From: Lathyrus oleraceus
Taxonomy: Eukaryota > Streptophyta > Magnoliopsida > Fabales > Fabaceae
Assembly (NCBI RefSeq): GCF_024323335.1
Contig: NC_066585.1
Location: 537,052,769-537,116,768 of the forward strand
Direction: 5' to 3'
Length of the DNA: 64,000 nucleotides
Shown one piece after another: positions 10,435-53,003 of this stretch. Position numbers and translations under genes: made by a program. The first letter of the stretch is position 1; the number at the start of each line of letters is the position of its first letter. The notes under the pieces are model-generated. The model saw nothing but the letters and a program-made list of their open reading frames with translations. It was not told the DNA's origin and searched no databases.

Positions 10435-10452
10435 TCCCCGGCAGAGTCGCCA
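10435..10452 (-). other. Primer binding site (tRNA-Arg type)
   Basis: Minus strand reads TGGCGACTCTGCCGGGGA, six bases inside the LTR end (CTACA|GAAAAG). Same class as the Ogre 2 site at 41953-41970. Published Ogre elements use a tRNA-Arg primer. Confidence 0.85.
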
Positions 10453-19509: not shown

Positions 19510-21540
19510 TGTAACACCCTTCTAAATTACCCCAAATATTTAATTAAAACAACAAATATATACATCAGAGTAAAGGTGCAAATAAGGGTGTCACACAAAC
19601 ACTTCACACCATTCACCATAATAACTGTCATGCTCTTTTATTAATTCAAAACATAAAGCATTTGCACAATACGCAGCGGATAGAGATTAAATCAATCATG
19701 CAAAACATGTAGCATATTACATGTAAACTGGTTCACAACCAACAACAAAACATTTAAAACATCCCATCCCGATGTTACATCTACCAGAGCATGACCCACT
19801 AAGGAACTACACTAGACTTCAAGTACTAGCTCCTACTCAATCACTACTCGTTACCTGAAAAATAGTTGTAAGGGTGAGTTCCTCAATCGATATAAAAAGC
19901 ATTATAGAATATCATGAAATGCTAAGTAAATAACACGTTAATCACCCTAATCATATCACACATTCAGTAACGGCACATCAACTCAATTATCATACTCAAT
20001 ACCAACACAATTCATACTCATACTCAATGCCAACACAAACACACGTATAATATTGGAATACATCCATTCATATTATACGCCATACATACATTATGCAATG
20101 AGACTCCATGCATGTGGCACCGACTATTCGTGAACATATAGTTCACCTCACCGATCAAATCCAGATACGGCTACCAAGCCCACTAGTCCCACTCATTTGA
20201 GACCTAGTGACTCACTCACTAATTCCTCACCATGGGAATTAGCTACCACCCCAAGGGCTATGCTATGCACGCTAATCACCTAGCATGCAAACATCAACAA
20301 CAATCCACAATGATTTACTCACTAATTCCTCACCATGGTAATTAGCTACTACCATAAAGGCCACAATATGCATGCTAATTCACCTAGCAATGCAACATCA
20401 TCAACAACAATCCACAATGGACATATGCTCACACTCTAAGCCATAAAACAGTCCATTCACCAACACATGCATAATATATACATTCACAACATTATGCATA
20501 TTTTCACACATCATCAGCATATTTATCACATAATCATATCATGTCATGCCAATTAATCAATCACAGTATTAGCACACTCTACTAATACCTATACTACTCA
20601 AAACAACGGGAAATGATCCCTACTATATCACACACTGATATAGGCAACCATCAAATAGGTACACAACATTCAAATATTAATTTTTTCACTTTTCACACAG
20701 TGTTAACCGGTTAACACCCTGGGTTAACCGGTTAACGCAACACAGAACACGCTTCCTGGCAAAACTTAACAGTGTTAACCGGTTAACGCCCTGGGTTAAC
20801 CGGTTAACGCAGACAGAACAGCAATATTTTCCCAACTCACAACAGTGTTAACCGGTTAACGCCCTGGGTTAACCGGTTAACGCAAGCAAAACAGCAATAC
20901 CTCACAATTCCTAACAGTGTTAACCGGTTAACACCCTGGGTTAACCGGTTAACGCAAGACAGAAAGCTGTTCCTGCGCTAACACGAAGCAGAACGCAGAA
21001 TTCTCCGCATTTTCCGCCGTTGGAGGACTTCCGGACATCCGATTCCGATTCCGTAAAAAGCTATACGTTCGGAAAATCATAACCCATCCAATTACAGATT
21101 CAATTTCAGTTTTAACACAACTTATCCAACACAATTTTTCAGCATTCAACATCCCAATTAGGGTCAATTCAACGGTTCATCACTACCCATTACATGTTAA
21201 CCCATAATACCCATTAAACGACGATAAACCCCCCTTACCTGAGTTAATCCGGCGAATCTTTAAGCTTCAAGCTTTTCTCTTCTCCAACCTTCTTCCTCTT
21301 GCTCTGCCTCTTTGCCCTTTTTCCTCTTTTTGAGCCGCTTCTCTGTTTTCACGTAAAACCCTCTTTACCAAAAAAAAAATGAAACTCTTTTCTTATTTCC
21401 CACTTATATACTTTCCAATAATTATTATTCCAATAATAATAATAATAATAATAATCCAATAATTCCAATTATTTAATTAAATTAATAAATATAATATTAA
21501 CTTAAATTAAATAATTATCTTATTTTATCGGGGTGTTACA
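19510..21540 (-). repeat. Tekay 3' LTR
   Basis: TGTAACACCC...GGGTGTTACA, with 10-bp terminal inverted repeats; 2,031 bp. Holds the palindrome array 20702-20953, a TATA-like GTATATAAG on the minus strand (about 21408-21416) and (AAT)n near 21437. Confidence 0.95.
20702..20953. repeat. Array of eight GTTAACCGGTTAAC palindromes
   Basis: Four pairs of the perfect 14-bp palindrome. Within a pair the centres are 21 bp apart and pairs recur about every 73-80 bp. Identical organisation in the other LTR at 27270-27521. Each palindrome is two head-to-head GGTTAA (GT-1-like) cores around CCGG. Confidence 0.95.
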
Positions 21541-26077: not shown

Positions 26078-28107
26078 TGTAACACCCTTCTAAATTACCC
26101 CAAATATTTAATTAAAACAACAAATATATACATCAGAGTAAAGGTGCAAATAAGGGTGTCACACAAACACTTCACACCATTCACCATAATAACTGTCATG
26201 CTCTTTTATTAATTCAAAACATAAAGCATTTGCACAATACGCAGCGGATAGAGATTAAATCAATCATGCAAAACATGTAGCATATTACATGTAAACTGGT
26301 TCACAACCAACAACAAAACATTTAAAACATCCCATCCCGATGTTACATCTACCAGAGCATGACCCACTAAGGAACTACACTAGACTTCAAGTACTAGCTC
26401 CTACTCAATCACTACTCGTTACCTGAAAAATAGTTGTAAGGGTGAGTTCCTCAATCGATATAAAAAGCATTATAGAATATCATGAAATGCTAAGTAAATA
26501 ACACGTTAATCACCCTAATCATATCACACATTCAGTAACGGCACATCAACTCAATTATCATACTCAATACCAACACAATTCATACTCATACTCAATGCCA
26601 ACACAAACACACGTATAATATTGGAATACATCCATTCATATTATACGCCATACATACATTATGCAATGAGACTCCATGCATGCGGCACCGACTATTCGTG
26701 AACATATAGTTCACCTCACCGATCAAATCCAGATACGGCTACCAAGCCCACTAGTCCCACTCATTTGAGACCTAGTGACTCACTCACTAATTCCTCACCA
26801 TGGGAATTAGCTACCACCCCAAGGGCTATGCTATGCACGCTAATCACCTAGCATGCAAACATCAACAACAATCCACAATGATTTACTCACTAATTCCTCA
26901 CCATGGGAATTAGCTACCACCATAAAGGCCACAATATGCATGCTAATTCACCTAGCAATGCAACATCATCAACAACAATCCACAATGGACATATGCTCAC
27001 ACTCTAAGCCATAAAACAGTTCATTCACCAACACATGCATAATATATACATTCACAACATTATGCATATTTTCACACATCATCAGCATATTTATCACATA
27101 ATCATATCATGTCATGCCAATTAATCAATCACAGTATTAGCACACTCTACTAATACCTATACTACTCAAAATAACGGGAAATGATCCCTACTATATCACA
27201 CACTGATATAGGCAACCATCAAATAGGTACACAACATTCAAATATTAATTTTTTCACTTTTCACACAGTGTTAACCGGTTAACACCCTGGGTTAACCGGT
27301 TAACGCAACACAGAACACGCTTCCTGGCAAAACTTAACAGTGTTAACCGGTTAACGCCCTGGGTTAACCGGTTAACGCAGACAGAACAGCAATATTTTCC
27401 CAACTCACAACAGTGTTAACCGGTTAACGCCCTGGGTTAACCGGTTAACGCAAGCAAAACAACAATACCTCACAATTCCTAACAGTGTTAACCGGTTAAC
27501 ACCCTGGGTTAACCGGTTAACGCAAGACAGAAAGCTGTTCCTGCGCTAACACGAAGCAGAACGCAGAATTCTCCGCATTTTCCGCCGTTGGAGGACTTCC
27601 GAACCTCCGATTCCGATTCCGTAAAAAGTTATACGTTCGAAAAATCACAACCCATCCAATTACAGATTCAATTTCAGTTTTAACACAACTTATCCAACAC
27701 AATTTTTCAGCATTCAACATCCCAATTAGGGTCAATTCAACGGTTCATCACTACCCATTACATGTTAACCCATAATACCCATTAAACGACGATAAACCCC
27801 CCTTACCTGAGTTAATCCGGCGAATCTTTAAGCTTCAAGCTTTTCTCTTCTCCAACCTTCTTCCTCTTGCTCTGCCTCTTTGCCCTTTTTCCTCTTTTTG
27901 AGCCGCTTCTCTGTTTTCACGTAAAACCCTCTTTACCAAAAAAAAATGAAACTTTTTTCTTATTTCCCACTTATATACTTTCCAATAATTATTATTCCAA
28001 TAATAATAATAATAATAATAATCCAATAATTCCAATTATTTAATTAAATTAATAAATATAATATTAACTTAAATTAAATAATTATCTTATTTTATCGGGG
28101 TGTTACA
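26078..28107 (-). repeat. Tekay 5' LTR
   Basis: 2,030 bp, same termini as the 3' LTR. On the minus strand it starts TGTAACACCCCGATAAAAT. A TATA box lies about 135 nt in (27964-27975), followed by a leader that ends CTCAG|GTAAGG (27807/27806), a strong 5' splice donor. Confidence 0.95.
27270..27521. repeat. GTTAACCGGTTAAC palindrome array, 5' LTR copy
   Basis: Eight palindromes in four pairs, as in 20702-20953. All eight are perfect in both LTRs even though nearby bases have changed. Confidence 0.95.
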
Positions 28108-39254: not shown

Positions 39255-40168
39255 TGAAATTCTAGTAACAGACTATCGATGTCACACTGGATGTTATGAC
39301 ATCCAATTCTACGCAGATAGGTAATGTATGCAGAAAGTAAATGTAAAATGCAGTAAATGACACAGAGAATTGTTTACCCAGTTCGGTGACAAACACACCT
39401 ACGTCTGGGGGCTACCAAGCCAGGGAGGAAATCTACTATAAGAGGTATTAATTCAGGACTTAAACCACCAGTTTAATCCTATCACTTAAGACCTACCCAA
39501 TGCAATTTCAATCTAAACTAAGACCTGAGTACCTACTCACTCCCCCTCAATCACAGCAGTGATTACAACCTTTAATAATTTTAAAGTCAGTGGTGAAGAT
39601 ATACTTCAAACAACTCTTGATTGTGCTTAAAAGCTTTAATCAAGAAACACAGCGCTCACGCTTAAAAGCTTAGAGTGACACACCAATTACAACTCAATAA
39701 ACACCCTAGGCCAATGCAATCATCTAGGTGATAATTGCTTGGCTCACAAGTAAAACCTAATACAAGACACAATAAAAGTACAGTAAGGATCTATACTGAT
39801 ATATTTAAATCTTCACGCTTCAAACCCCTGAGTTACTGAAAGTAGGATTGTCCTCCTTTTATAATGCAGCACTTGGGCCTTGTATTTGAATTTCCTAAAC
39901 TTAAGGTCAAGCAAGTTAACCTAATTTCCACACATTAGGGCGCTAACAAATAGGCTATATGCTAGGTCTCTTAATTTTAGCACAATTGTTAGTTTCTTGG
40001 ATTTTAGCACAGCTGTTAGATTCCTGAAAAACAGCCTGAGATCAATACTGAAGCATAACAGAAAAACTAACTAGCCTACACTTTAGCATATGCTGTCAGG
40101 AATGAATGTCATAACATTCAGTTTGACATCCAGAAAATAGGCTATATGCTAGGTCTCTTAATTTTAGC
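39255..40168 (-). repeat. Copia 5' LTR, part 1 (interrupted by Ogre 2)
   Basis: Aligns to the 3' LTR from its inner end. The interruption falls after TTTTAGC in the second unit of the internal duplication; the LTR resumes at 52755. Confidence 0.93.
40164..40168. repeat. Ogre 2 target-site duplication, left
   Basis: TTAGC; repeated at 52750-52754. The uninterrupted site in the other copia LTR (near 33497) reads TTTTAGCACATC. Confidence 0.95.
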
Positions 40169-41950
40169 TGTAACACCCCAAAATTTTCCCTCCTTATTCA
40201 CGCATTCATTTTTAGGTCATTTAACATTAGATACATTGCATTTCATCATGTCAATCGGGATTAGCTCCAAGAAGCTTGAACATCATCCAGGACACTTTGT
40301 GGGTTCTATTTAGATGATCAGTCAACACAAGGGAAAGACTTGAGTTACTTCCAACAGGGGTCTATTCGTCAGTTAAAACGTTAATCTTGAAGGAGCAAAG
40401 GTTTGTTCATGAGCTGTCACGCTCGCTAGGCGAAACCCACGTGTTTTGAAAAAAAAAACGGAAAATAAAAAAAAACGATTTTTTTTTAATTAAATAAATA
40501 TAAAAAATTTGGACTTGGGCCTCTCTCATTTGAGCCCACAAGTCCACAAAAACCAGGTTATAAATTCAGAGTTTCAGTGAAACAAAATTTCATTCTATTC
40601 CTATTACCCTGGCTGAGGAAAAAGAAAGTGAGAGAAGAGCCAACAGAGTTCAGAGCAACCTCCAGAGACTGAAGGGAACTCATCGGCAAAGAACCAATTC
40701 CCTCTCATATAAACCCTAAGATTGTTCTGCAAACCCAACCAGGCAATTCAATTTCATTCGATCTCTCCAATCAGGTTTGCCCTATATCCATCATCTTTAT
40801 GCTCTTAATTTGAATCATCTGAATGTATGAGGTATTATGGGTGAATTTGATACCCTTTTGATGCATGTGTTTGACAAGAGGTTTAGGCCTCCTACCCTTG
40901 GTTGCTTTTTGTGAATTGAAAGGGCATGATTCATGTGGTTACATTTTGATTTAGGGGCAACTCTTGATTACCCTATCTTGTTTCTCTAACCTGTTTGTTG
41001 AGTTTTGTTTTGTGAGGGCTCATATGACTCTTGCAGATATGGCTTGCCTGGTGTTCCACTTTATATGGGGGATACCACCTGGAGGTTTATTCTGATTACC
41101 TGTACTGACTCGCTTTCTTTGATGGTGTTAGCTTGGAAGGATCTCTGGGTTTCTCGTTCCTTTAATTGCAGTTACCTCGGATCTTCATCTATGTGGTACT
41201 TTTACATTTTTTTTCGCATTTTACCGCTTTCTTAGCTGGAAGACCTCGATAGGAGGAAATGTTTTTGTGTGTTTACTTTATGCAGGTTCCTTCGTCAAGG
41301 ACTGCCTTTTTGCATGAGTATCCCTAACCCTACCAACTCATTGATTTTTCTTCTCCTAAGAACATGTTAACTCCTTCTACTACAGGCGAGTAAGTCTCCA
41401 AAGGTCGAGCATCCGGTAGATTGCGTAGTAACGTCGTTCGTCCAAAACCCAATCCATAACCCCGTAGTTAGCCGAACTACGGCTTGCTCTGATTCTCATT
41501 CCAGATGAGATACGTAGGCATAAGACGCGATGTCTTAGCGAGCACACATCCCCCCAACCCATAGGTCAGCCGAGCTACGAAGACTCTAATTCTCATATTC
41601 ATATGAGATACGTATGCAGTGGATGCGACATCCGTGCGAGTCATTTTCTTTTGACCCCTTTTTTTTTTATTAAATAACACATTAGATAAACCCACACCCT
41701 TTAGACAAGAACTACAAAAGTGGATCCCGTAGAGTACTACGGATGCGTAGGGGTGCTAATACCTTCCCTTCGCATAATCGACTCCCGAACCCAAGATTTG
41801 GTTGCGAGACCCTGTCTTGTCCTTTCCTTTTTCCAGGTTTACTTCGAGCGTTTCCTTTCCCTCCTTTGGGATAAATAACGCACGGTGGCGACTCTCCTGT
41901 CTTTCTTCGTCGGTTGTTTTTTTTCGCATTCCATTTTTCAGGTTGTGACA
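40169..41950 (+). repeat. Ogre 2 5' LTR
   Basis: TGTAACACCCCAAAATTTTCC...GGTTGTGACA. TATA-like TTATAAATTC at 40558-40567. A leader of about 200 nt ends CAATCAG|GTTTGCC (about 40774), a plausible splice donor; several CAG-type acceptors follow, the last being CATTTTTCAG|GTTG at the LTR end. A single TCGCTAGGCGA motif lies near 40430. U5 has the block GGATAAATA...GGTGGCGACTC. Open frames at 41005-41695 are not supported as genes. Confidence 0.95.
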
Positions 41951-41952
41951 GC

Positions 41953-41970
41953 TGGCGACTCTGCTGGGGA
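41953..41970 (+). other. Ogre 2 primer binding site (tRNA-Arg type)
   Basis: TGGCGACTCTGCTGGGGA, two bases after the LTR end. Confidence 0.9.
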
Positions 41971-43073
41971 CCCGTTTTCCCTAAGCGAGTCCCTCCTAGA
42001 TTTTGTAGGTTGTTTGTTTATTGGGTGTTTATTCTTTTGTACAGTTATTTATCTTTCAGCATTTACCTGCTTTATTGCATTGTGTACATATGACTGCCGT
42101 ATCTGCTGGTTCTGTTTGTGAGATGAGTTCTATACCCGAACTCGAGTGCACTTAGGATAGGAGAATGGCATAGTCTTGTTGACTTGTGTGGAGTTATTCC
42201 TTAGCAAGTTGACTTGTAAGCCCATTCACTTGGTGGAGGTCATGTTGGGATCAATAATGTCACACAAGTAAGTTGTGGTTATACATTACTTTTTCTAATA
42301 TAGACCTTAGAAGCCAAGGATCTTAGTTTACCAAACCCATCTTGGCCTATTCGTAGGACGTAGTGCGAAAGTCGTTCAAGTGTAAGATTTGATACAATTG
42401 TTACGCGATACTACACTCATAAGAGTCTCTCTTGAGAATATTTTTGGAATACGAGTAGTCGTTCCTCCGATAATATCCGAAAGATGGGATTATGACTATG
42501 GGAACCTTTTTGTAGAACATGTTTGGCAGGTTTAAACCTTAGTACACTCCCTTTGGGTGGTTCTTAACCTAAACTCCATGCTCGTGACTTGCAACAAACC
42601 CTTGATTCATGGTTGATCCGTTCAGGTATCCTTAATATCAATGAAACTTGGGTGTTGATAAGGTGTAAACAATAATCCACCAAAAATGGATGGTTGATAT
42701 TAAGGATAACATGATCCATCCCATGACCTTTGTTTGGTGTGCTTTGCTTGATCCTCTTAATTTCTCTCCAGGCAGTGCAACCTGACAGATGTTCAAGCGG
42801 ATCCAGCAATTCTGATTGACATGCCATTGCATTGCATAACATCATCTGCATATTTGCATCCAACATCTCATGCTTATTCATTTGCAGGGTATTCCCTTTT
42901 TAAGGGAGGGCCTTAAAATCGAATAAGCAGTGCATCGCATACCATGCATGCTAACCCTTGTTTGTTTTGCAAGTGTCACCGCATTGTCTAATGTTTGTTC
43001 CCTGTTTCAGGCAGTTATTGGTCCCAAGCGAGTTCACAGGTACCCGACAAAGGAAAACCGTCCACGACTAGCA
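41971..43073 (+). other. Ogre 2 5' leader
   Basis: Non-coding. 42125-42740 is the block conserved with Ogre 1. Two candidate splice acceptors lie just before gag: TTCATTTGCAG|GG (about 42886) and CCTGTTTCAG|GCAG (about 43012). No ORF1 is present. The minus-strand open frame at 42564-42881 is not coding. Confidence 0.75.
42627..42708 (+). other. Conserved 15-bp stem-loop in Ogre 2 leader
   Basis: Arms 42627-42641 (TATCCTTAATATCAA) and 42694-42708 (TTGATATTAAGGATA), loop 52 nt with an inner ATCCA/TGGAT pairing. Counterpart of 9689-9767. Confidence 0.8.
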
Positions 43074-44129
43074 ATGGACCAGATACAGAAAGAACTGGCC
43101 GATATGCGTGAAAGGATGGATCAGTTCATGATATTGATGACTGGTATGGCAGAAGGCCAGGCGAAGCTGAAGGAATTGGTTGAGCAACCGAGGCCCGATC
43201 CAGAGGTGGAAATACCAAGTGCTAAGGGGAACCCTGATAACCCTGGGAACGCTGATAACCCTGTGAACACTGGAAATGCGGGTAACGCAAATGTTGATGG
43301 AAACCCGGGTAATGTTGGCAACACGGGAAATGTTGGGAATGGTATTGGCGGAAGGTACAATGTGAATCAAGGAATTCGGATTAACGGCCTCCCTGTTACT
43401 GAAGATTATCAGTATGATCAATTCTCTGTGCACGACGAAGCCCTCGAGACCACTCGCCGTATGGATGAGCTTGTTGAGAAGCTCAAATCTTTGGAGTCTC
43501 AAAATTCCTTAGGTTTTGATGTCACCAATCTTGGTCTGGTTCAGGGAGTAAGGATCCCTCACAAGTTCAAACCCCTTACTTTTGAGAAATACAACGGGGC
43601 TTCTTGCCCACGCACTCATCTCCAATCTTATCTGGGAAGGTTGGGAGCTCACACTGAAGATGAAAAGTTGTGGATGTACTATTTTGAAGACAGTCTAACT
43701 GGAGCTTCTCGTGAATGGTATTCTCATTTGTCTCGCACTACCATCAAGAGCTAGAAAGACTTGGCAGAGGCTTTTATCAAGCAATATCAATACAACTTGG
43801 ACATGGCTCCAAATCGGACCTTGTTGCAAGGAATGTCTCAGACTGCCAAGGAGACCTTTAGAGAATATGCTCAGCGTTGGAGACAAATTGTTGCGTCCGT
43901 CCAACCCCCTATGTCTGAAAGGGAGATGGCGGACATGTTCATGAACACTCTTCAAGGCAATTATATCGAGAGATTGGCTGCTTACCCGTCAATCAGCTTT
44001 GCAGAGATAGTGATTGCTGGAGAAAGGATCGAGAGTCTGTTGAAGATGGGTCGAATTCAAGACAACAGTGCTTCCAACTCATCAGTTCCCAAGAAACTGT
44101 TTGCTGGTAACGGTCAGCGAAGAAGATAA
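43074..44129 (+). pseudogene. Ogre 2 gag
   Basis: ATG at 43074 (MDQIQKELADMRERMDQFM) opens a coiled coil at the same place as in Ogre 1. Next is a low-complexity stretch of about 45 residues built on Asn/Gly/Pro repeats (NPDNPGNADNPVNTGNAGNA) that has no equivalent in Ogre 1. The gag fold follows (FKPLTFEKYNG, YYFEDSLTGASREWYSHL, then after a TAG at 43752-43754, FIKQYQYNLDMAPNRTLLQG and FREYAQRWRQI). A TAA closes it at 44127-44129, with the same frame continuing into the nucleocapsid-like linker. The first stop is in a Trp position by comparison. Confidence 0.88.
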
Positions 44130-45070
44130 GGTGAGACGAGCGTTGTATATGCCGGCAGAGGCAGGGGCAGAGGACGCCCTAATTATTATCAAGATCAAGT
44201 GGCCGTAGTCACTATTCCAACACCTGTTCCTCAACCGCAGTATCATCCGCAACAGCAACCCAGGTACAACAATCAACAACAAGGAGGTAATCCGGGTCAG
44301 CAGAGACACTATCAACAACGTCCAAGGCAGGCGGACCGGGTCATTGAGCCAATCCCAATGCCTTATTCTGTATTACTTCCCAAGCTGATTGACATGAATC
44401 TGGTTACGTTGAGAACTCTGGCCCCACCGGTCGATACCAACAATCTGCCTAGAGGTTATGATGTCAATGCCAGATGTGCTTTTCACTCCAACGCACCTGG
44501 CCGTACTACAGATAATTGCAAGGCTCTCCAACTAAAGGTACAAGATTTGAGAGATGCCCAGGCCATCAATTTTTCTCCGGTGCCTAATGTTATCCAAAAC
44601 CCGATGCCAGCTCACGGCGGGCAGAGGATTAATGTTGTTGATAGTGGGGAAACTTTGAATTTGGTTTCTGATGTGGCTAAAGTGAAGACTTCGCTATCGG
44701 TGGTCAAAGACCGACTTTTGAAAGGACAAATTTTCCCGGGCTGTGGGGAAGAGTGCGAAAATTGTCAAGCTGCTGAGAACGGATGTGATAGTTTGAGAAA
44801 GGGTATTCAGCAACTGATAGATGAAGGTTGTCTTCAGTTCGATCAGACTCGTCCAGTGAAGAATGATGTGTCGACAGTAACGTTTTATTTCACTCTTGAA
44901 GAAATATATGTTCCCGAGAGACCCGCTCCGATGACAATATATTTCCCAGAAAGTCCAGCACCAATTTACTCTGACAACCCTCAACCGACTTTGATTGGTC
45001 CGGTCACCATCACGGTACCAGGACCTGTTCCGTATGAGAAAGACAGTGCTATCCCGTGGCACTATGGGGG
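44130..45070 (+). pseudogene. Ogre 2 gag C-terminal linker
   Basis: RGRGRGRPNYYQDQ, a glutamine-rich stretch (QYHPQQQPRYNNQQQGG), then LLPKLIDMNLVTLRTL and the C-H-C cluster CAFHSNAPGRTTDNCKALQLK that matches Ogre 1. A second Cys cluster (CGEECENCQAAENGCDSLRKG) lies near 44745-44800. It ends in a frameshift: a run of five G near 45064-45068 carries one base too many by comparison with the next open frame, which resumes at GADIYCQGQK. Confidence 0.8.
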
Positions 45071-46410
45071 CTGATATCTATTGCCAGGGGCAGAAAGTTA
45101 ACGAAGAAGACATTGACATTGGTAGCTCCGTTGTAGACAATGTTGGAGGAATTGGTGGCTTCACTCGCAGTGGACGCCTATTTGCACCATCAACATTGCG
45201 CACGAATGCTGAAGTTGAGGCAGCTGCCAAGGCTAAAGGAAAACAGGTATCCACCGAAGAGGTTACTACCGAGGAAGCTCCTCCTAAGACCGCATTCGAG
45301 AAGGAAGTGGATAAGTTTATGAGGATTATCAAGAAAAGTGACTACAAGGTAGTCGACCAGCTAAATCAGACACCCTCAAAGATCTCCATTCTCTCATTAT
45401 TGATGTGCTCTGAGGCACACAGAGCAGCCTTGTTGAAAGTACTGAATATGGCTTATGTTCCCCCAGAGATAATTGTTGACCAGCTGGAGTCGGTAGTTTC
45501 GAATGTACACACTAGCCATGCGCTAGGTTTCACCGATTATGACCTGACGTCTGAGGGCAGGAATCACAACAAAGCCTTGCATATCACAATGGAATGCAAA
45601 GGGACGGTGCTTTCCCATGTCTTGGTTGATACAGACTCTTCTCTGAATGTTCTTCCAAAGAAAGCCTTGATGAAGTTGGATTGCGATGACGCCACCCTGA
45701 GGCCGAGTAATTTGGTTGTGAGGGCCTTTGGTGGCTCTAAGTGAGCTGCCTGTGGCGAAGTTGAGTTGCCAGTTAAGATTGGACCGCAGGTATTCAAAAT
45801 TACCTTTTATGTGATGGATATTCAGCCTGCCTATAGCTGTTTGCTAGGTCGGCCCTGGATTCACGTTGCCGGTGTTGTTACTTCTACTCTCCACCAGAAG
45901 CTCAAATATGGACTAGAAGGTCAGATCGTCACTGTCTGTGGTGAAGAGGATATTTTTGTTAGCCACCTTTCTACGTTTAAGTATGTGGAGATGGATGGCG
46001 AGATGCATGAGATCCTGTGTCAGGGCTTCGAAACTATAAACATCAGTGAGGTCGTGCCCGAAGCTGTCTTTTCACTCGAGTCTGAGAAGGTCGGGACTTC
46101 TATTTCTTCATACAAGCAAGCTGTTGAAGTGGTTAAAACTGGTAATGCCCAAGGCTGGGGCAAATTTGTGGAGCCAATCATCAAAGAAGACAAGTTTGGA
46201 TTGGGGTATACTCCGGGGTCTCAGAAGAATGAAGTCGGTACTTTCTCCAGCGGGGGTTTGGTTTCTCCCCACATCGTCAATGCTGCAGATGAAGACAAGG
46301 CTGACAGCGAATGTGACTTAGATAGCTGGATTCGCCTGTGTGTCCCAGGAGAAAAGCTCGACAATTGGTCGTCTGAAAAAGTCGTCCGGTGTACTCTACT
46401 GAAGGAGTAA
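45061..46410 (+). pseudogene. Ogre 2 aspartic protease region
   Basis: Frame resumed after the G-run frameshift. It carries FMRIIKKSDYKVVDQLNQTP, SLLMCSEAHRAALLKVL, and the active site LVDTDSSLNVLPKKAL: the family has D-T-G, so the catalytic Gly is replaced by Asp, which should inactivate the protease. A TGA at 45742-45744 (CpG-type change from an Arg codon) interrupts; the frame continues through SCLLGRPWIHVAGVVTSTLHQ and ends CTLLKE* at 46410. Ogre 1 protease (4500-5534) is the close relative. Confidence 0.85.
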
Positions 46411-46690
46411 TTTTTATTGTTTTCCTTTTATCACATGCATAATAAAGTCTTACACTTTGACCAAGGTGTAATGACTCATCTGTAGGGCCATCCATTTAGT
46501 TACATTTTGCAATTATTTTAATCATCAATAAAGGACAGCTTTTGCAAACAATTTTGTGTTCTCTTTCTTTCAATTATTTTTACTTTTACAAAAACGGCAA
46601 TGTTTCTTTTTCATGTTTCTTTTTTGTTTTTGTTTCCAAAAAACACCTCGTAAAACTGATCACCCGGATCTCACTGCTAACGACACTGCT
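46411..46690 (+). other. Candidate Ogre 2 intron (protease to RT)
   Basis: T-rich, stop-rich gap between protease and RT frames, in the same place as 4194-4499 of Ogre 1. Exact splice sites are not clear by eye. Confidence 0.45.
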
Positions 46691-47672
46691 ATGGCCAAGT
46701 ATGACTTCGACAATCCTATCTATCAAGCCAAAGAAGGGGCTGAGGAAGATTGTGAATTGCCTGAGGAGTTAGCCAGGTTGTTGAAACAGGAGGACCGAGC
46801 TTTTACACCTTATCAGGAGGTGATTGAGACTATCAACATTGGTACCGAAGACGACAGAAAGAGAGGTTCGTGGCTTCCTGGGCAGGTTGAACTACATTTC
46901 AAGGTTCATATCTAATCTTACAGCCACATGCGAGCCATTGTTCAAAATGCTGAGAAAAGAGCAAGAGGTCAGTTGGAATGATGATCGTCAGAAGGCCTTT
47001 GAAAGAATAAAAGAGTATTTGCAGGAGCCTCCGATTCTAATGCCTCCAGTAGAGAGAAGACCGTTGATCATGTACTTAACTGTGTTAGAAAGGTCAATGG
47101 GTTGTGTGCTCGGTCAGCATGACGAGTCAGGTCGAAAAGAGCATGCAATATACTACCTTAGCAAAAAGTTTACCGACTGTGAACAAAGATACTCACTACT
47201 CGAGAAAACTTGTTGCGCTTTGGCATGGGCTGCTCGCCGACTAAGACAATATATGTTGACTCACACGACTCTATTGATATCAAAGATGGATCAAGTCAAG
47301 TATATTTTTGAAGAGCCAGCGTTTACCGGAAGGGTTGCTAGGTGGCAAATGATGCTGACAGAGTATGACATCCAATACACTTCACAAAAAGCCATCAAAG
47401 GAAGTGTCTTGTCAGACTATCTTGCCGAGCAACCGATTGATGATTACCAACCTATGAGGTTCGACTTTCCTGATGAGGACATCATGTTTCTCAAATCGAA
47501 AGATTGCGAGGAACCACTCCCGGAGGAGGGGCCTGACCCTGAATCCAAATGGATTATGATGTTTGATGGGGCGGTCAACGTCAATGGTCACGGAGTTGGT
47601 GCAGTGTTGATCACACCGGAGGGGGTTCATATGCCATTTTGCGCCAGAATAACTTTTCCCTACACCAACAAT
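46691..47672 (+). pseudogene. Ogre 2 RT fragment and RNase H start (core deleted)
   Basis: Opens with the acidic linker AKYDFDNPIYQAKEGAEEDCELPEELARLL and ETINIGTEDD, then near 46860 jumps to REVRGFLGRLNYISRFI, the RT thumb. By comparison with Ogre 1 the entire palm, including YIDD, is gone and the join is out of frame. The C-terminal part is well preserved: YYLSKKFTDCEQRYSLLEKTC, ARWQMMLTEYDIQYTSQKA, then RNase H FDGAVNVNGHGVGAVLI. RNase H is cut near 47672 at FPYTNNEA. Confidence 0.88.
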
Positions 47673-48016
47673 GAAGCCGGACAAAGCAGAATGGGTCCGT
47701 TCTCGATACAATCAGCTGAGCCTAGTTGAGGAAAAGAGACTAGCAGCTATATGCCATGGCCAACTATATCGGAGACGGATGAAGAGAGCATTTGATCAGA
47801 AAGTGCGCCATCGGGAGTATCAAGTCGGTGAATTGGTACTCAAAAGAATTCTTCCTCCCAACACAGGTCATAGGGGAAAATGAACACCGAACTATGAGGG
47901 TCCATACGTGGTTAAAAGAGTTTTTTCTCTGACGGAGCTTTGATGCTAACAACCATGGATGGCGAAGACTTCCCATCCCCTGTCAACTCAGACGCAGTTA
48001 AAAAGTACTTCGTATA
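47673..48016 (+). pseudogene. Ogre 2 integrase C-terminal tail
   Basis: DKAEWVRSRYNQLSLVEEKRLAA, RMKRAFDQKVRHREYQVGELVLKR, a TGA at 47881-47883, then NYEGPYVVKRVF and DFPSPVNSDAVKKYFV*, ending at 48016. This is the extreme end of Ogre integrase, without chromodomain. The HHCC finger and D-D-E core are deleted, so no function is possible. Confidence 0.85.
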
Positions 48017-48059
48017 ATTGACCCGCTGGACAGTAAAAAGAATAGTCCAGGCAAAAAAA

Positions 48060-48225
48060 GGGGCATCCCGACGAACCAAAAAAGAACAAAGAGGTTCGGG
48101 CAAAAATTAGGGATATAAAAAAATAAAAAAAATGTACACCCGGTGAGTCGAAAACCCGAAAGGGAGGCTCAGGCAAAAAAGGGTATCCCGGTGGATTGAA
48201 AACCCGAAAAGGGCGATCCAGGCAA
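48060..48225 (+). repeat. Ogre 2 3' UTR: three hairpin units with GAAA-type inner loops
   Basis: Three related units at 48067-48100, about 48137-48173 and about 48187-48221. Outer arms differ but pair: GAACC/GGTTC; GAGTC/GGCTC (one G-U); GGATTG/CGATCC (one G-U). Units two and three have an inner CCC-GAAA(A)-GGG hairpin (e.g. 48155-48164). Confidence 0.75.
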
Positions 48226-49350
48226 AAGTTAGGGAATAAGCGAATGACTGCAACCTAAGTTCACCTGTGTTATATCACCGTTTCATTCAATCCGGCAATC
48301 TTCGAAGGTTAAAGATCGTCTAACCATCCACTTCAGAAAGCAAGATGAGCAGAGCGTCTTGAGGTCATACGAGCCATAGCAGAGTCGAAACTCAGTGGGA
48401 CCTCGTTTCCACATTGCCATTAGGATAGTTTCTCTTGTTCAATTTATAGCGATCGCCTCTTTCCAGGGATCAGCTTCCTGATGTACTCGCCTATTCCTGG
48501 CACAAATTTTTCAACCAACAAAAGTCGAATAATTCAGTTAAAAAGCCTCTTTATTTTTCATTTATCAGTTTGTTTGCAAAAGATGTCTGAATTCTTGAGG
48601 AAACATATTGCATCTGAATATAATGGTGGCTTTTGCAGATGATTTGCACAGGAAAATATTTAAAATTGCTTTGAATGTGCTTAATCCCGGACGGTGAATT
48701 CAAACCGAGTAATCCCCCGGGGCATACGTGTATTTTTTGGTTACAGGTCACAGGAACCGGATGCCAAGCCGTGAATCCCCATCCCCAAGCGGTTGACAAA
48801 GCCTCTCCTCAGCAGAGCAGGTTCCCCAGTAGAGTTGACAGTATCCAAACTGTATATCCCCAGCGGAGTCGACAGTGCCAGACTGTATCTTCCCAGCAAC
48901 AGCGGAGTAGTTGCATACCCAACAGACAAGAGGGTGGTGTTCCCAGTGTTCATCTCATTCCCCCAGCAGATTATTTCTAACAGATTTGTTCTAATCCCCA
49001 GCCTGAGGACGATTAGCAAGTTCATATCCCCAGCAAAGGTCGATTCATACGACATTTCCCCAGGAAGTGCTTTCCTCACAGACTCTCCTCGCAGAGCCTC
49101 GCCAAGAAAAGTTTCCATAGTTTATACTCCCCCAGCAAGGTCAACTTTTCAAAAGGCCAATTTATTTTTGGTGGCTCATTGGTCCCGGAAGACGGATCAT
49201 TCCCCACAGAGCATTCAAGGATTGATACAGCGATCCGTTACCTACCGAAGTTTCCTTCCCCAAACAGATTTCTTTTTTACACCATGCATAACATTTGCAT
49301 TTGCATGCATATCATATCAAGCATACACATAAGCTGATAAACAGGTTCTT
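48226..49350 (+). other. Ogre 2 3' UTR, CCCCAGC-repeat segment
   Basis: Non-coding. From about 48700 it has a degenerate repeat on the phrase TCCCCAGC(A/G)GAG, with small inverted repeats such as ACAGT-N6-ACTGT (48838-48853) and ACAGT-N5-ACTGT (48872-48886). Open frames on both strands (48675-49332) are by-products of the repeats. Confidence 0.65.
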
Positions 49351-49404
49351 CCAAGCAGACTGAAGAATTACTTTACAACCAAAGTCATGAGATCCAGCCA
49401 GAGG

Positions 49405-50790
49405 ATCAAGCGTGAGTGATCCAGCCTGAGGGTCATTTTGAAGATTCAGCCTGAGAATCGTTTTCCAATGAGCCAGCCTGAGGTTCAATTCGAAGATTCA
49501 GCCTGAGAATCGTTTTCCAATGAGCCAGCCTGAGGTTCAATTTGAAGATTCAGCCAGAGAGTCGACTACGAGCGTTATTTCCCCAGCGAGCCGGCTAGAG
49601 GAATAGATTGACAGCTCAACAGAAAACCAACCTACAAGAGGATCCAGCCCGCGGATCGCATTTAAAAAAACAAAGTCTAATCGAAGAGTCGTTATAACAT
49701 GTTCTAGCCTGAAGAATATATACGAAGCCCAAGAGTGGGATATTCTCGAAGCTGCATATCTAACATGAAGATTGGGCGCAGATTTCGAAAGAGAGTCAAC
49801 CAGCACATGCCTCAGATGCGAGATCCTGATGATGGGAATTTATCATCAAATCAATTCAGATCTAGCCAGAAGATCGAAGTAGATTCAGCCAGAGAATCAA
49901 AGAAAATAGATTCAGCCAAAGAATCGAAACAAAGGAGATCTAGCCAGAAGACCGAAGAAGATCTACCCAGAAGATCGAAGATCGTAATCAGGTCTAGCCC
50001 GAAGACCGAAAATAGATTCAGCCAGAGAATCGAAACAAAGGAGATCTAGCCAGAAGATCGAAGTCGGGTCTAGCCCGAAGACCGGAAATAGATTCAGCCA
50101 GAGAATCGAAACAATTCAGATCTAGCCAGAAGATCGAAGTAGATTCAGCCAGAGAATCAAAGAAAATAGATTCAGCCAGAGAATCGAAATAAAGGAGATC
50201 TAGCCAAAAGATCGAAGTCAGGTCTAGCCCGAAGACCAAGATCAGATTCAGCCAGAGAATCGAAACAAAGTAGATCTAGCCAGAAGATCGAAGCCAGGTC
50301 TAGCCCGAAGACCAAATATAGATTCAGCCAGAGAATCAAAGAGAATAGATTCAGCCAGAGAATCGATCCCCAGTGAAGTCGCCCGAAGACCGGAAATCGT
50401 ATCCAGCCAAAGGATCAAAATCGTATCCAGCCAGAAGATCGAAGTAGATCTAGCCAGAAGATCAAAGTCAGGTCTAGTCCGAAGATCGAAAATAGATTCA
50501 GCCAGAGAATCAGAGAAGATAGATTCAGCCAGAGAATCGACAGAAGAAGATCTAGCCAGAAGATCGAAGAAGATCTAGCCAGAAGATCGAAGAAGATCTA
50601 GCCAGAAGATCGAAATAGATTCAGCCCGAGAATCGAAACAAGAAGATCTAGCCAGAAGATCAAAATCGTATCCAGCCCGAGGATCAAAATTAATATCCAA
50701 CCAGAGGACTAAATTGAGTATAGATTTAGCCAGAGGATCGAAACTCCAGATTAAGTCAGAAGACTGATTCAGATTCAGCCAGAGGATTAG
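49405..50790 (+). repeat. Ogre 2 3' UTR: array of about 45 covarying mini-hairpins
   Basis: Tandem units of 20-35 bp, each arm1-AGCC(A/C/T)GA-arm2. Arm pairs include GATTC/GAATC, GATCT/AGATC, GGTCT/AGACC, GATCC/GGATC and GAGCC/GGTTC (with G-U). The loop is nearly constant; spacers such as GAAG, AAACAAAG or AAAATA vary. I count about 45 units between 49403 and 50790, the densest part being 49858-50700. Tandem repeats in this location are known for pea Ogre; the pairing pattern is read directly from the sequence. Confidence 0.9.
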
Positions 50791-50949
50791 AAGAAAAATA
50801 AACAGCGGTGTATTTCAGCATTTTTGTGGTGTTCTCGGAGCGCAAATTTTCGGTCTGTCTTTGGTATTCAATCACAGCTCACCCTATTTGTCTGATAAGC
50901 TGTTCGCTTTCATCCTGCTCGGGTTAGCTGATGACTGAATAGTGGCAGC
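50791..50949 (+). other. Ogre 2 sequence before 3' LTR
   Basis: Non-coding. No clear polypurine tract touches the LTR: the last bases are ACTGAATAGTGGCAGC. The nearest purine run is TTAGAAGAAAAATAAA near 50787-50800, about 150 nt away. Confidence 0.6.
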
Positions 50950-52749
50950 TGTAACACCCCAAAATTTGCCCTCCTTATTCACGCATTCATTTTTAGGTCA
51001 TTTAACATTAGATACATTGCATTTCATCATGTCAATCGGGATTAGCTCCAAGAAGCTTGAATATCATCCAGGACACTTTGTGGGTTCTATTTAGATGATC
51101 AGTCAACACAAGGGAAAGACTTGAGTTACTTCCAACAGGGGTCTATTCGTCAATTAAAATGTTAATCTTGAAGGAGCAAAGGTTTGTTCATGAGCTGTCA
51201 CGCTCGCTAGGCGAAGCCCACGTGTTTTGAAAAAAAAACGGAAAACGAAAAGAAAAAAAATTTAAATTAAATTAAATAAATAAATAAATATAAAATTTTT
51301 GGACTTGGGCCTCTCTCATTTGAGCCCACAAGTCCACAAAAACCAGGTTATAAATTCAGAGTTTCAGTGAAACAAAATTTCATTCTATTCCTATTACCCT
51401 GGCTGAGGAAAAAGAAAGTGAGAGAATAGCCAACAGAGTTCAGAGCAACCTCCAGAGACTGAAGGGAACTCATCGGCAAAGAACCAATTCCCTCTCATAT
51501 AAACCCTAAGATTGTTCTGCAAACCCAACCGGGCAATTCAATTTCATTCGATCTCTCCAATCAGGTTTGCCCTATATCCATCATCTTTATGCTCTTAATT
51601 TGAATCATCTGAATGTATGAGGTATTATGGGTGAATTTGATACCCTTTTGATGCATGTGTTTGACAAGAGGTTTAGGCCTCCTACTCTTGGTTGCTTTTT
51701 GTGAGCTTTTTGTGAATTGAAAGGGCATGATTCATGTGGTTACATTTTGATTTGGGGGCAACTCTTGATTACCCTATCTTGTTTCTCTAACCTGTTTGTT
51801 GAGTTTTGTTTTGTGAGGGCTCATATGACTCTTGCAGATATGGCTTGCCTGGTGTTCCACTTTATTTGTGGGATACCACCTGAAGGCTTATTCTGATTAC
51901 CTGTACTGACTCGCTTTCTTTGATGGTGTTAGCTTGGAAGGATCTCTGGGTTTCTCGTTCCTTTAATTGCAGTTACCTCGGATCTTCATCCGTGTGGTAC
52001 TTTTACATTTTTTCCGCATTTTACCGCTTTCTTAGCTGGAAGACCTCGATAGGAGGCAATGTTTTTGTGTGTTTACTTTATGCAGGTTCCTTCGTCAAGG
52101 ACTGCCTTTTTGCATGAGTATCCCTAACCCTACCAACTCATTGATTTTTCTTCTCCTAAGAACACGTTAACTCCTTCTACTGCAGGCGAGTAAGTCTCCA
52201 AAGGTTGAGCATCCGGTAGATTGCGTAGTAACGTCGTTCGTCCAAAACCCAATCCATAACCCCGTAGTTAGCCGAACTACGGCTTGCTCTGATTCTCATT
52301 CCAGATGAGATACGTAGGCATAAGACGCGATGTCTTAGCGAGCACACATCCCCCCAACCCATAGGTTAGCCGAGCTACGAAGACTCTGATTCTCATATTC
52401 AGATGAGATACGTATGCAGTGGATGCGACATCCGTGCGAGTCATTTTCTTTTGACCCCTTTTTTTTTAGTAAATAACACATTAGATAAACCCACACCCTT
52501 TAGACAAGAACTACAAAAGTGGATCCCGTAGAGTACTACGGATGCGTAGGGGTGCTAATACCTTCCCTTCGCATAATCGACTCCCGAACCCAAGATTTGG
52601 TTGCGAGACCCTGTTTTGTCCTTTCCTTTTTCCAGGTTTACTTAGAGCGTTTCCTTTCCCTCCTTTGGGATAAATAACGCACGGTGGCGACTCTCCTGTC
52701 TTTCTTCGCCGGTTGTTTTTTTTCGCATTCCATTTTTCAGGTTGCGACA
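50950..52749 (+). repeat. Ogre 2 3' LTR
   Basis: 1,800 bp, TGTAACACCCC...GGTTGCGACA. About 28 substitutions and a few indels from the 5' LTR, including an 11-bp duplication (GAGCTTTTTGT) near 51700. Confidence 0.95.
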
Positions 52750-52754
52750 TTAGC
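52750..52754. repeat. Ogre 2 target-site duplication, right
   Basis: TTAGC; see 40164-40168. Confidence 0.95.
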
Positions 52755-52998
52755 ACATCTGTTAGTTTCCTGAAAATCAGCCTGAGATAAATACTGAAAC
52801 ATAGCAGGAAAAACTAACTAGCCTATACTTTAGCATATGCTGTTAGGGATGAATGTCATAACATTCAGTTTGATAACCAGTAAATCTTGTATTAGCTAAT
52901 CCTGCAGCATACTGCTTAAGCATGTCATGACATCAGTCAAGACATCAGAGTACAATAAGTGTTTTAACACAAAATGCAGCCAATCAAAAACATCTACA
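52755..52998 (-). repeat. Copia 5' LTR, part 2
   Basis: Resumes at ACATCTGTTAG and ends ACATCTACA, completing the 1,158-bp LTR. Confidence 0.93.
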
Positions 52999-53003
52999 TT
53001 TCC
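52999..53003. repeat. Copia target-site duplication, right
   Basis: TTTCC; see 32582-32586. Confidence 0.9.

Follow-up and report, generated by a model that had tools for sequence, protein, structure and literature searches.

Macas et al. (2009) reportedly described hypervariable tandem repeats in the 3' UTRs of Tat/Ogre LTR retrotransposons. Such repeats are treated as already known in the available text of two further papers (PMC3305785, PMC11963269), and in that of a third they are proposed to be products of replication and seeds of satellite DNA (PMC7004042). Like the locus analyzed here, the repeats of the third paper lie between pol and the 3' LTR, are built of tandem units and vary in array size, but they are known as sequence repeats and as a source of satellites, and the terms hairpin, palindrom and secondary structure are absent from its text (PMC7004042). 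The minisatellites of soybean Gmr9/GmOgre likewise lie past the coding sequence of an Ogre-type element, but they form five families of 26-105 bp, and covarying stems are not described for them in the available text (PMC3305785). No report of covarying hairpins in such elements was found in the literature searched, the 2009 study lying outside that search.

The window, by which we mean the whole 64,000-nt stretch of DNA analyzed, contains an LTR retrotransposon spanning 40169-52749 on the plus strand, with two LTRs, a primer binding site (PBS) and a target-site duplication all present. Its parts are as follows.

40169..41950, plus strand: 5' LTR, which starts TGTAACACC and ends GTGACA
41953..41970, plus strand: primer binding site TGGCGACTCTGCTGGGGA, 2 bases past the 5' LTR
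43755..44126, plus strand: gag piece (PF03732 Retrotrans_gag, E 2.1e-07)
46824..47729, plus strand: RNase H piece of pol (PF17917, E 4.1e-24; PF17919, E 4.3e-23)
48823..48898, plus strand: two 34-bp repeats, each beginning with an 18-mer near-complementary to the PBS
49391..49563, plus strand: 5' hairpin block of seven units, loop mostly AGCCTGA, with five pairs each including G-U
49641..49657, plus strand: isolated unit GATCC-AGCCCGC-GGATC
49701..49717, plus strand: single-copy unit GTTCT-AGCCTGA-AGAAT, with the same arms in 58 of 64 arrays
49859..50788, plus strand: main hairpin block, with spacers mostly of 6-11 nt
50950..52749, plus strand: 3' LTR, placed by LTR comparison and the target duplication

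The element is of the Ty3/gypsy type and is very abundant, its family leaving thousands of genomic traces. The two LTRs are 96.7% identical over 1806 aligned columns, and the 5-bp target duplication, TTAGC, lies on either side of the element at 40164-40168 and 52750-52754. The PBS presumably fits tRNA-Arg, and Ogre elements have a PBS of the tRNA-Arg type. The Ogre label is a provisional one that agrees with the duplication of 5 bp at the target site, with the repeats in the 3' UTR and with the presumed PBS type, and the tandem repeats are located between pol and the 3' LTR as expected of Ogre (Ty3/gypsy, Tat clade). A Pfam scan covered ORF pieces in two partly overlapping sets, of six and ten; a gag piece and an RNase H piece matched, and no match to reverse transcriptase or integrase was found in the scanned pieces. 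Since matches were confined to just two of these pieces, this copy looks decayed. According to the available text of PMC6317226, Tat elements are marked by the aRH domain. An Rfam scan of 40000-53000 gave nothing reaching the gathering score and two sub-threshold matches, both in the 5' LTR.

The hairpin array occupies 49391-50788 in the 3' UTR, between the coding region and the 3' LTR. Its unit is a 17-nt hairpin, composed of a 5-bp stem of variable sequence and a 7-nt loop, AGCC(A/C/T)GA, and units are separated by short A-rich spacers. A sequence-only reading of the window had proposed mini-hairpins of this kind at 49405..50790, and their existence is confirmed, with 37 exact AGCCNGA loops, 50 loop-anchored units when up to one loop mismatch is permitted, and 46 units under a laxer, arm-aware rule, although the first unit begins at 49391 and the last ends at 50788. 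The arm types that it quoted, GATTC/GAATC, GATCT/AGATC, GGTCT/AGACC and GATCC/GGATC, are all present, as are the G-U types GAGCC/GGTTC (at 49470 and 49522) and GATTT/GGATC (at 50723). It overstated the case in saying that the arms always pair: all five arm positions are paired, by Watson-Crick or G-U, in 34 of the 37 exact-loop units and in 39 of the 50 looser ones, and the array contains the imperfect arm pairs TATCC/GGATC, TATCC/AGATC, TATCC/GGACT, GATTA/AGACT and GATCT/AGACC. Nonetheless 225 of 245 arm cells in this array are paired, compared with 187.5 ± 3.5 after reshuffling of the arms, and when each of its 20 arm combinations is counted once, 81 of 100 cells are paired, a value that none of 5000 shuffles matches (64.8 ± 3.0). 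Tandem Repeats Finder reports block periods of 23-28, 52, 76, 154 and 174 bp, among others, for the same region. Block amplification and covarying arms are both real.

The comparison set comprises 64 arrays with 1,887 units, all from one 3.795-Gb genome of 1,550 contigs, probably that of pea. A query with the 210 bases just 3' of the array gave 40 scored places of 2,103 first-look candidates; the set also includes eight loop-pattern copies (from 12 stretches fetched), eight copies from the flank of a second subfamily (from 40 places) and eight copies found via a triple-loop pattern. The array is kept in 40 of the 40 copies selected by the first flank, 39 of which have 12-31 exact loops and the window copy 37. 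The eight copies from the second subfamily's flank have 17-22 each, and retention over both flank queries is 48 of 48 copies examined. Across the 64 arrays 1,360 of the 1,887 units have an exact loop, and 1,206 of these 1,360 are fully paired. Genome-wide there are 46,308 matches to the triple-loop pattern, compared with 9,585 for its reversed control. The stem has a fixed length, ending at 5 bp; the position next to it is A/G or A/A in 1,063 of 1,436 units. The AGCCCGA repeats at loci L001-L008, of which L001 and L002 were inspected, were rejected as arrays of the hairpin kind, and no array was found at L017-L020, which came from the loop-pattern search; L021 is the window copy itself and was left out as a duplicate. 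Upstream of the array, at 48991-49016, an AGCCTGA loop sits on a longer, two-part stem (CTAATC-C-CC-AGCCTGA-GG-AC-GATTAG), and this longer-stem hairpin appears as TTAATC...GATTAG in copies L039 and L044.

Covariation was scored in a smaller set of 48 elements, using the 22 of 98 exact-loop unit types that three or more of them carry. Of the arm cells in these shared types 96.4% are paired, compared with 82.8 ± 1.8% after shuffling (0 of 500), the covariation score is 0.668 compared with 0.361 ± 0.040 (0 of 500), and sliding the partner by 1-3 columns lowers pairing to 4.5-57.3%. Both-sided changes occur at four of the five pairs, the two nearest the loop showing CG/UA, the middle one UA/GC and the fourth AU/GC/UA, and the outermost pair in these 22 types changes only from GC to GU or is broken. 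Four pairs with both-sided change were reached in 112 of 500 shuffles, and nine further pair types in 130 of 500, so neither of these measures counts as evidence. In the 48 arrays a fraction of 0.90 is paired, compared with 0.18-0.55 when slid by 1-2, and the paired fraction of arm types grows with sharing, from 0.615 for private types through 0.73 (2-4 elements) and 0.793 (at least 5) to 0.842 (at least 10). As judged from this comparison of copies, the stems covary around a nearly constant loop, which bears out the claim of the sequence-only reading; covariation no better than in shuffled units, which would have counted against it, was seen neither in this array nor in the shared types. Badly paired loop-like units are also widely common (TACGA/AAGTG in 44, GATTA/AGACT in 39, CATCC/GGACT in 31 and GCGAG/TGATG in 31 of 64 elements), independent founder changes are few, and the limited number of shared types has been multiplied in blocks. 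Because related sequences can beat shuffles without structure, a test of G.U against A.C pairs weighs more.

The logic of this test is that transitions on either arm should be about equally frequent in double-stranded DNA, one giving G.U and the other A.C, and only a sense RNA tolerates the G.U-leaving change but not the A.C-leaving one. Similar arm-by-arm rates are expected because an inverted repeat gives both arms nearly the same context, with the caveat that the contexts do not match perfectly at the loop-side and outermost pairs and that CHG methylation could tilt some sites. Among arm types with a single defect (tables that omit the multi-defect types, which are 12 of the 28 types in at least 5 elements and 92 of the 138 in up to 4), those found in at least 10 of 64 elements comprise 7 G.U, 0 A.C and 1 other; those in 5-9 elements 2, 1 and 1; those in 2-4 elements 6, 4 and 10; and private types 2, 8 and 11. 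The G.U:A.C ratio in at least 5 elements differs from that in up to 4 (Fisher p=0.017) and from that of private types (p=0.0055). The same table for the 48 arrays (G.U/A.C/other) reads 8/1/1 for at least 5 elements, 3/4/8 for 2-4 and 6/7/11 for private types, with p=0.074 for at least 5 against private. When all arm types are counted the direction is the same but weaker, at 21:6 in at least 5 elements against 83:58 in up to 4 (p=0.083), or against 54:42 for private types (p=0.047). Shared single defects are mostly G.U and hardly ever A.C, and private ones lean the opposite way, as pairing in the sense RNA predicts.

The genome-wide counts of one reciprocal pair are 2,903 for GATTC/GGATC (U.G) against 100 for GATCC/GAATC (C.A), although the former seems largely confined to two or three fixed slots, so that 2,903 counts few events repeatedly. 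GGTCT/AGATC occurs 300 times genome-wide, and in the 64 arrays it is found in 13 units against 3 for its A.C reciprocal (10 against 2 with the exact loop). Nine single-copy slots were tried and six kept; at S2 and S3 the flank pattern lost register, and S-1 pairs badly in the majority of copies. In the six that were kept, leaving out variants with more than two pairs unlike those of the major type, losses of Watson-Crick pairing gave 10 G.U, 3 A.C and 7 other mismatches; both-sided compensation was seen in one case, GTTTT/AAAAT, in a single copy. The bias of G.U over A.C points to sense-strand RNA, being positive for single-defect types and weaker over all types.

Single hairpins are weak: folded at 37 °C, six types gave energies between -2.3 and -4.7 kcal/mol. 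The 941-nt main block has a fold z of -4.28, with 0 of 20 shuffles as low, but the controls, an antisense strand that is more stable and arm swaps that cost little, fail to pick out the sense hairpins. Antisense is the more stable strand per nucleotide in 64 of 64 arrays (arrays longer than 1000 nt being represented by the last 1000 only), and global folding was rejected on this ground as proof of sense hairpins. When 3' arms were exchanged among units, 15 times per array, the window array went from -180.5 to -174.1 ± 4.6 kcal/mol; the cost was 11 (sd 4.5), 5 (sd 3.8) and 9.5 kcal/mol (sd 4.9) in copies L009, L028 and L055, and in L069 the fold improved by 3 kcal/mol (sd 4.8). No loop-loop kissing partner TCNGGCT was found elsewhere in the element.

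The 18-mers at 48823 and 48857 differ from the PBS complement at 3 and 2 of 18 positions respectively, and a third such 18-mer, with 4 mismatches, lies inside the array between units, at 50367-50384. Their duplex energies with the PBS, -32.8 and -33.2 kcal/mol for the 34-bp repeats and -29.4 kcal/mol for the third, are the best three in 41990-50950, although in the same region 60 shuffles of the PBS gave values down to -31.5 (mean -23.2) kcal/mol, and 25 other 22-mers taken from the element, with like GC, went as low as -29.0 (mean -22.2) kcal/mol. L009 and L010 contain 8 and 9 PBS-complement motifs at up to 5 mismatches, compared with 0.2 and 0.15 in shuffles, and none was found at up to 4 mismatches in L013, L014 and L016. 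Some form of the 34-mer is present in 27 of the 48 copies, not all of whose loci extend far upstream, and L010 has six 34-bp repeats upstream of its array by pattern. The PBS-like 18-mers could permit 5'-3' RNA pairing or could stem from captured primer tRNA. Ty3, as described in the available text of PMC4974528, has a 5'-3' bipartite PBS with some segments in its 3' UTR, and is alike in that the 3' UTR of a Ty3-type element is engaged in primer use; however, the Ty3 segments pair with the tRNA (PMC4974528), whereas the repeats here are tRNA-like and their partner would be the PBS.

We give an even chance to the reading that this is an array of sense-RNA hairpins under selection as a multivalent platform for protein binding, with Gag as its likeliest partner. 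Both partner and function are what we infer from its form: a constant loop, a free stem of fixed length, many copies and retention are the expected look of a multivalent binding array. Pairing would have been selected in the genomic RNA during the active phase of the element, since a protein would recognize the loop whatever the sequence of its stem, and the large number of copies would give high avidity. The likeliest reader would be the element's own Gag/nucleocapsid, because the feature persists through transposition and sits in the genomic RNA, and the array may then act as a multivalent signal for packaging or condensation; the second candidate is a host RNA-binding protein acting in stability or export. 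Tandem duplication in reverse transcription would make and resize the array, with selection filtering the units. Packaging signals of the MS2 type have a common loop motif and are dispersed along the genome and not arranged as a tandem array. In single-stranded RNA viruses such as MS2 multiple stem-loops likewise contact the coat protein, but these contacts have been mapped, according to the available text, whereas the present array is known from sequence (PMC6281560, PMC4751978). That an MS2-like docking array packages the genome and, in addition, PBS-like 3' repeats pair with the 5' PBS to form an RNA ring seems to us distinctly unlikely.

Founder amplification offers an account with no selection on the fold, in which a chance perfect hairpin gave rise to 6-8 types that were multiplied in blocks by reverse-transcription recombination, and we regard it as possible but rather unlikely. 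It is consistent with the block periods of 76, 154 and 174 bp, with the uneven array size (12-37 exact loops), with the few arm types, which are the same in most elements (several turn up in at least 40 of the 64), and with the weak all-type contrast of G.U to A.C (p=0.083); Tat/Ogre 3' UTR repeats are also proposed to arise in replication, in the available text of PMC7004042. However, matched changes at four of the five pairs separate the founder types from one another, the array has been lost in 0 of 40 flank-selected copies, and neutrality predicts equal A.C and G.U where 9 G.U and 1 A.C are seen among single-defect types in at least 5 of 64 elements. The sequence-only reading had argued for selection on a fold as opposed to bare tandem amplification, and the comparison with 63 other copies favors this, but the founder types are clearly block-amplified. 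Its own objection, that a few founder units might explain the arm types, is only partly answered, because block amplification of recurring types is visible and the all-type G.U bias is weaker. Template switching of reverse transcriptase on the hairpin, which would copy arm to arm and leave perfect inverted repeats without selection, suits elements that replicate via reverse transcription and arms that are often perfect. It would erase G.U and A.C equally, yet G.U types persist in many elements; its correction tracts should run past 5 bp and mostly do not; and the constant loop and array retention are left unexplained, and we consider it very improbable.

Since the arms are inverted repeats either DNA strand could fold, and the units might be DNA palindromes, as double-stranded sites for a dimeric protein or as cruciform or single-stranded hairpins in the cDNA. 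We give this little credence: the shared single defects are mostly sense G.U, a combination that becomes C.A on the opposite strand and is mismatched in DNA, and the reciprocal pair stands at 2,903 against 100. A host-facing RNA element, functioning in nuclear export, stability or as a small-RNA decoy instead of in packaging, is unlikely, although a multivalent array of hairpins could attract a host RNA-binding protein in the same way as Gag, and its position resembles that of known export elements, which occur in the 3' UTR. We know of no motif that the AGCC(A/C/T)GA loop matches, the motif search having been that of Rfam, and hairpins of 17 nt are too short to give Dicer products. It is also improbable that the units derive from captured 3' ends of the primer tRNA and that, together with the PBS-complementary repeats upstream, they bring about 5'-3' pairing in the genomic RNA. 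The 18-mers upstream (48823, 48857) and inside the array (50367), being the three best PBS duplex partners in 41990-50950, argue for this reading, as does the presence of 34-mers in 27 of 48 copies; against it, no array unit is among the PBS matches at up to 6 mismatches, apart from the stretch at 50367 between units, L013, L014 and L016 are without the motif at up to 4 mismatches, and shuffled PBS sequences and other 22-mers reach -31.5 and -29.0 kcal/mol in the same region.

If the 3' UTR repeats of Tat/Ogre elements are RNA-binding arrays, why the elements keep them becomes a testable question. Should the reading as a protein-binding platform in sense RNA be correct, the hypervariable repeats would be functional RNA and not debris, packaging signals of plant LTR retrotransposons would be findable by covariation, and the loops could be used as bait for the protein partner. 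The comparison of G.U with A.C among shared variants provides a cheap test of RNA selection in other repeat arrays.

Elsewhere in the window, a PBS complement with 1 mismatch at 10435-10452 possibly belongs to another Ogre-like element on the minus strand. The segments 20693-20964 and 27261-27532 contain 72-bp repeats with many inverted repeats resembling GGTTAACCGGTTAACC, within a duplicated segment, and a (TA)n run of 93.5 copies is present at 2442-2627.
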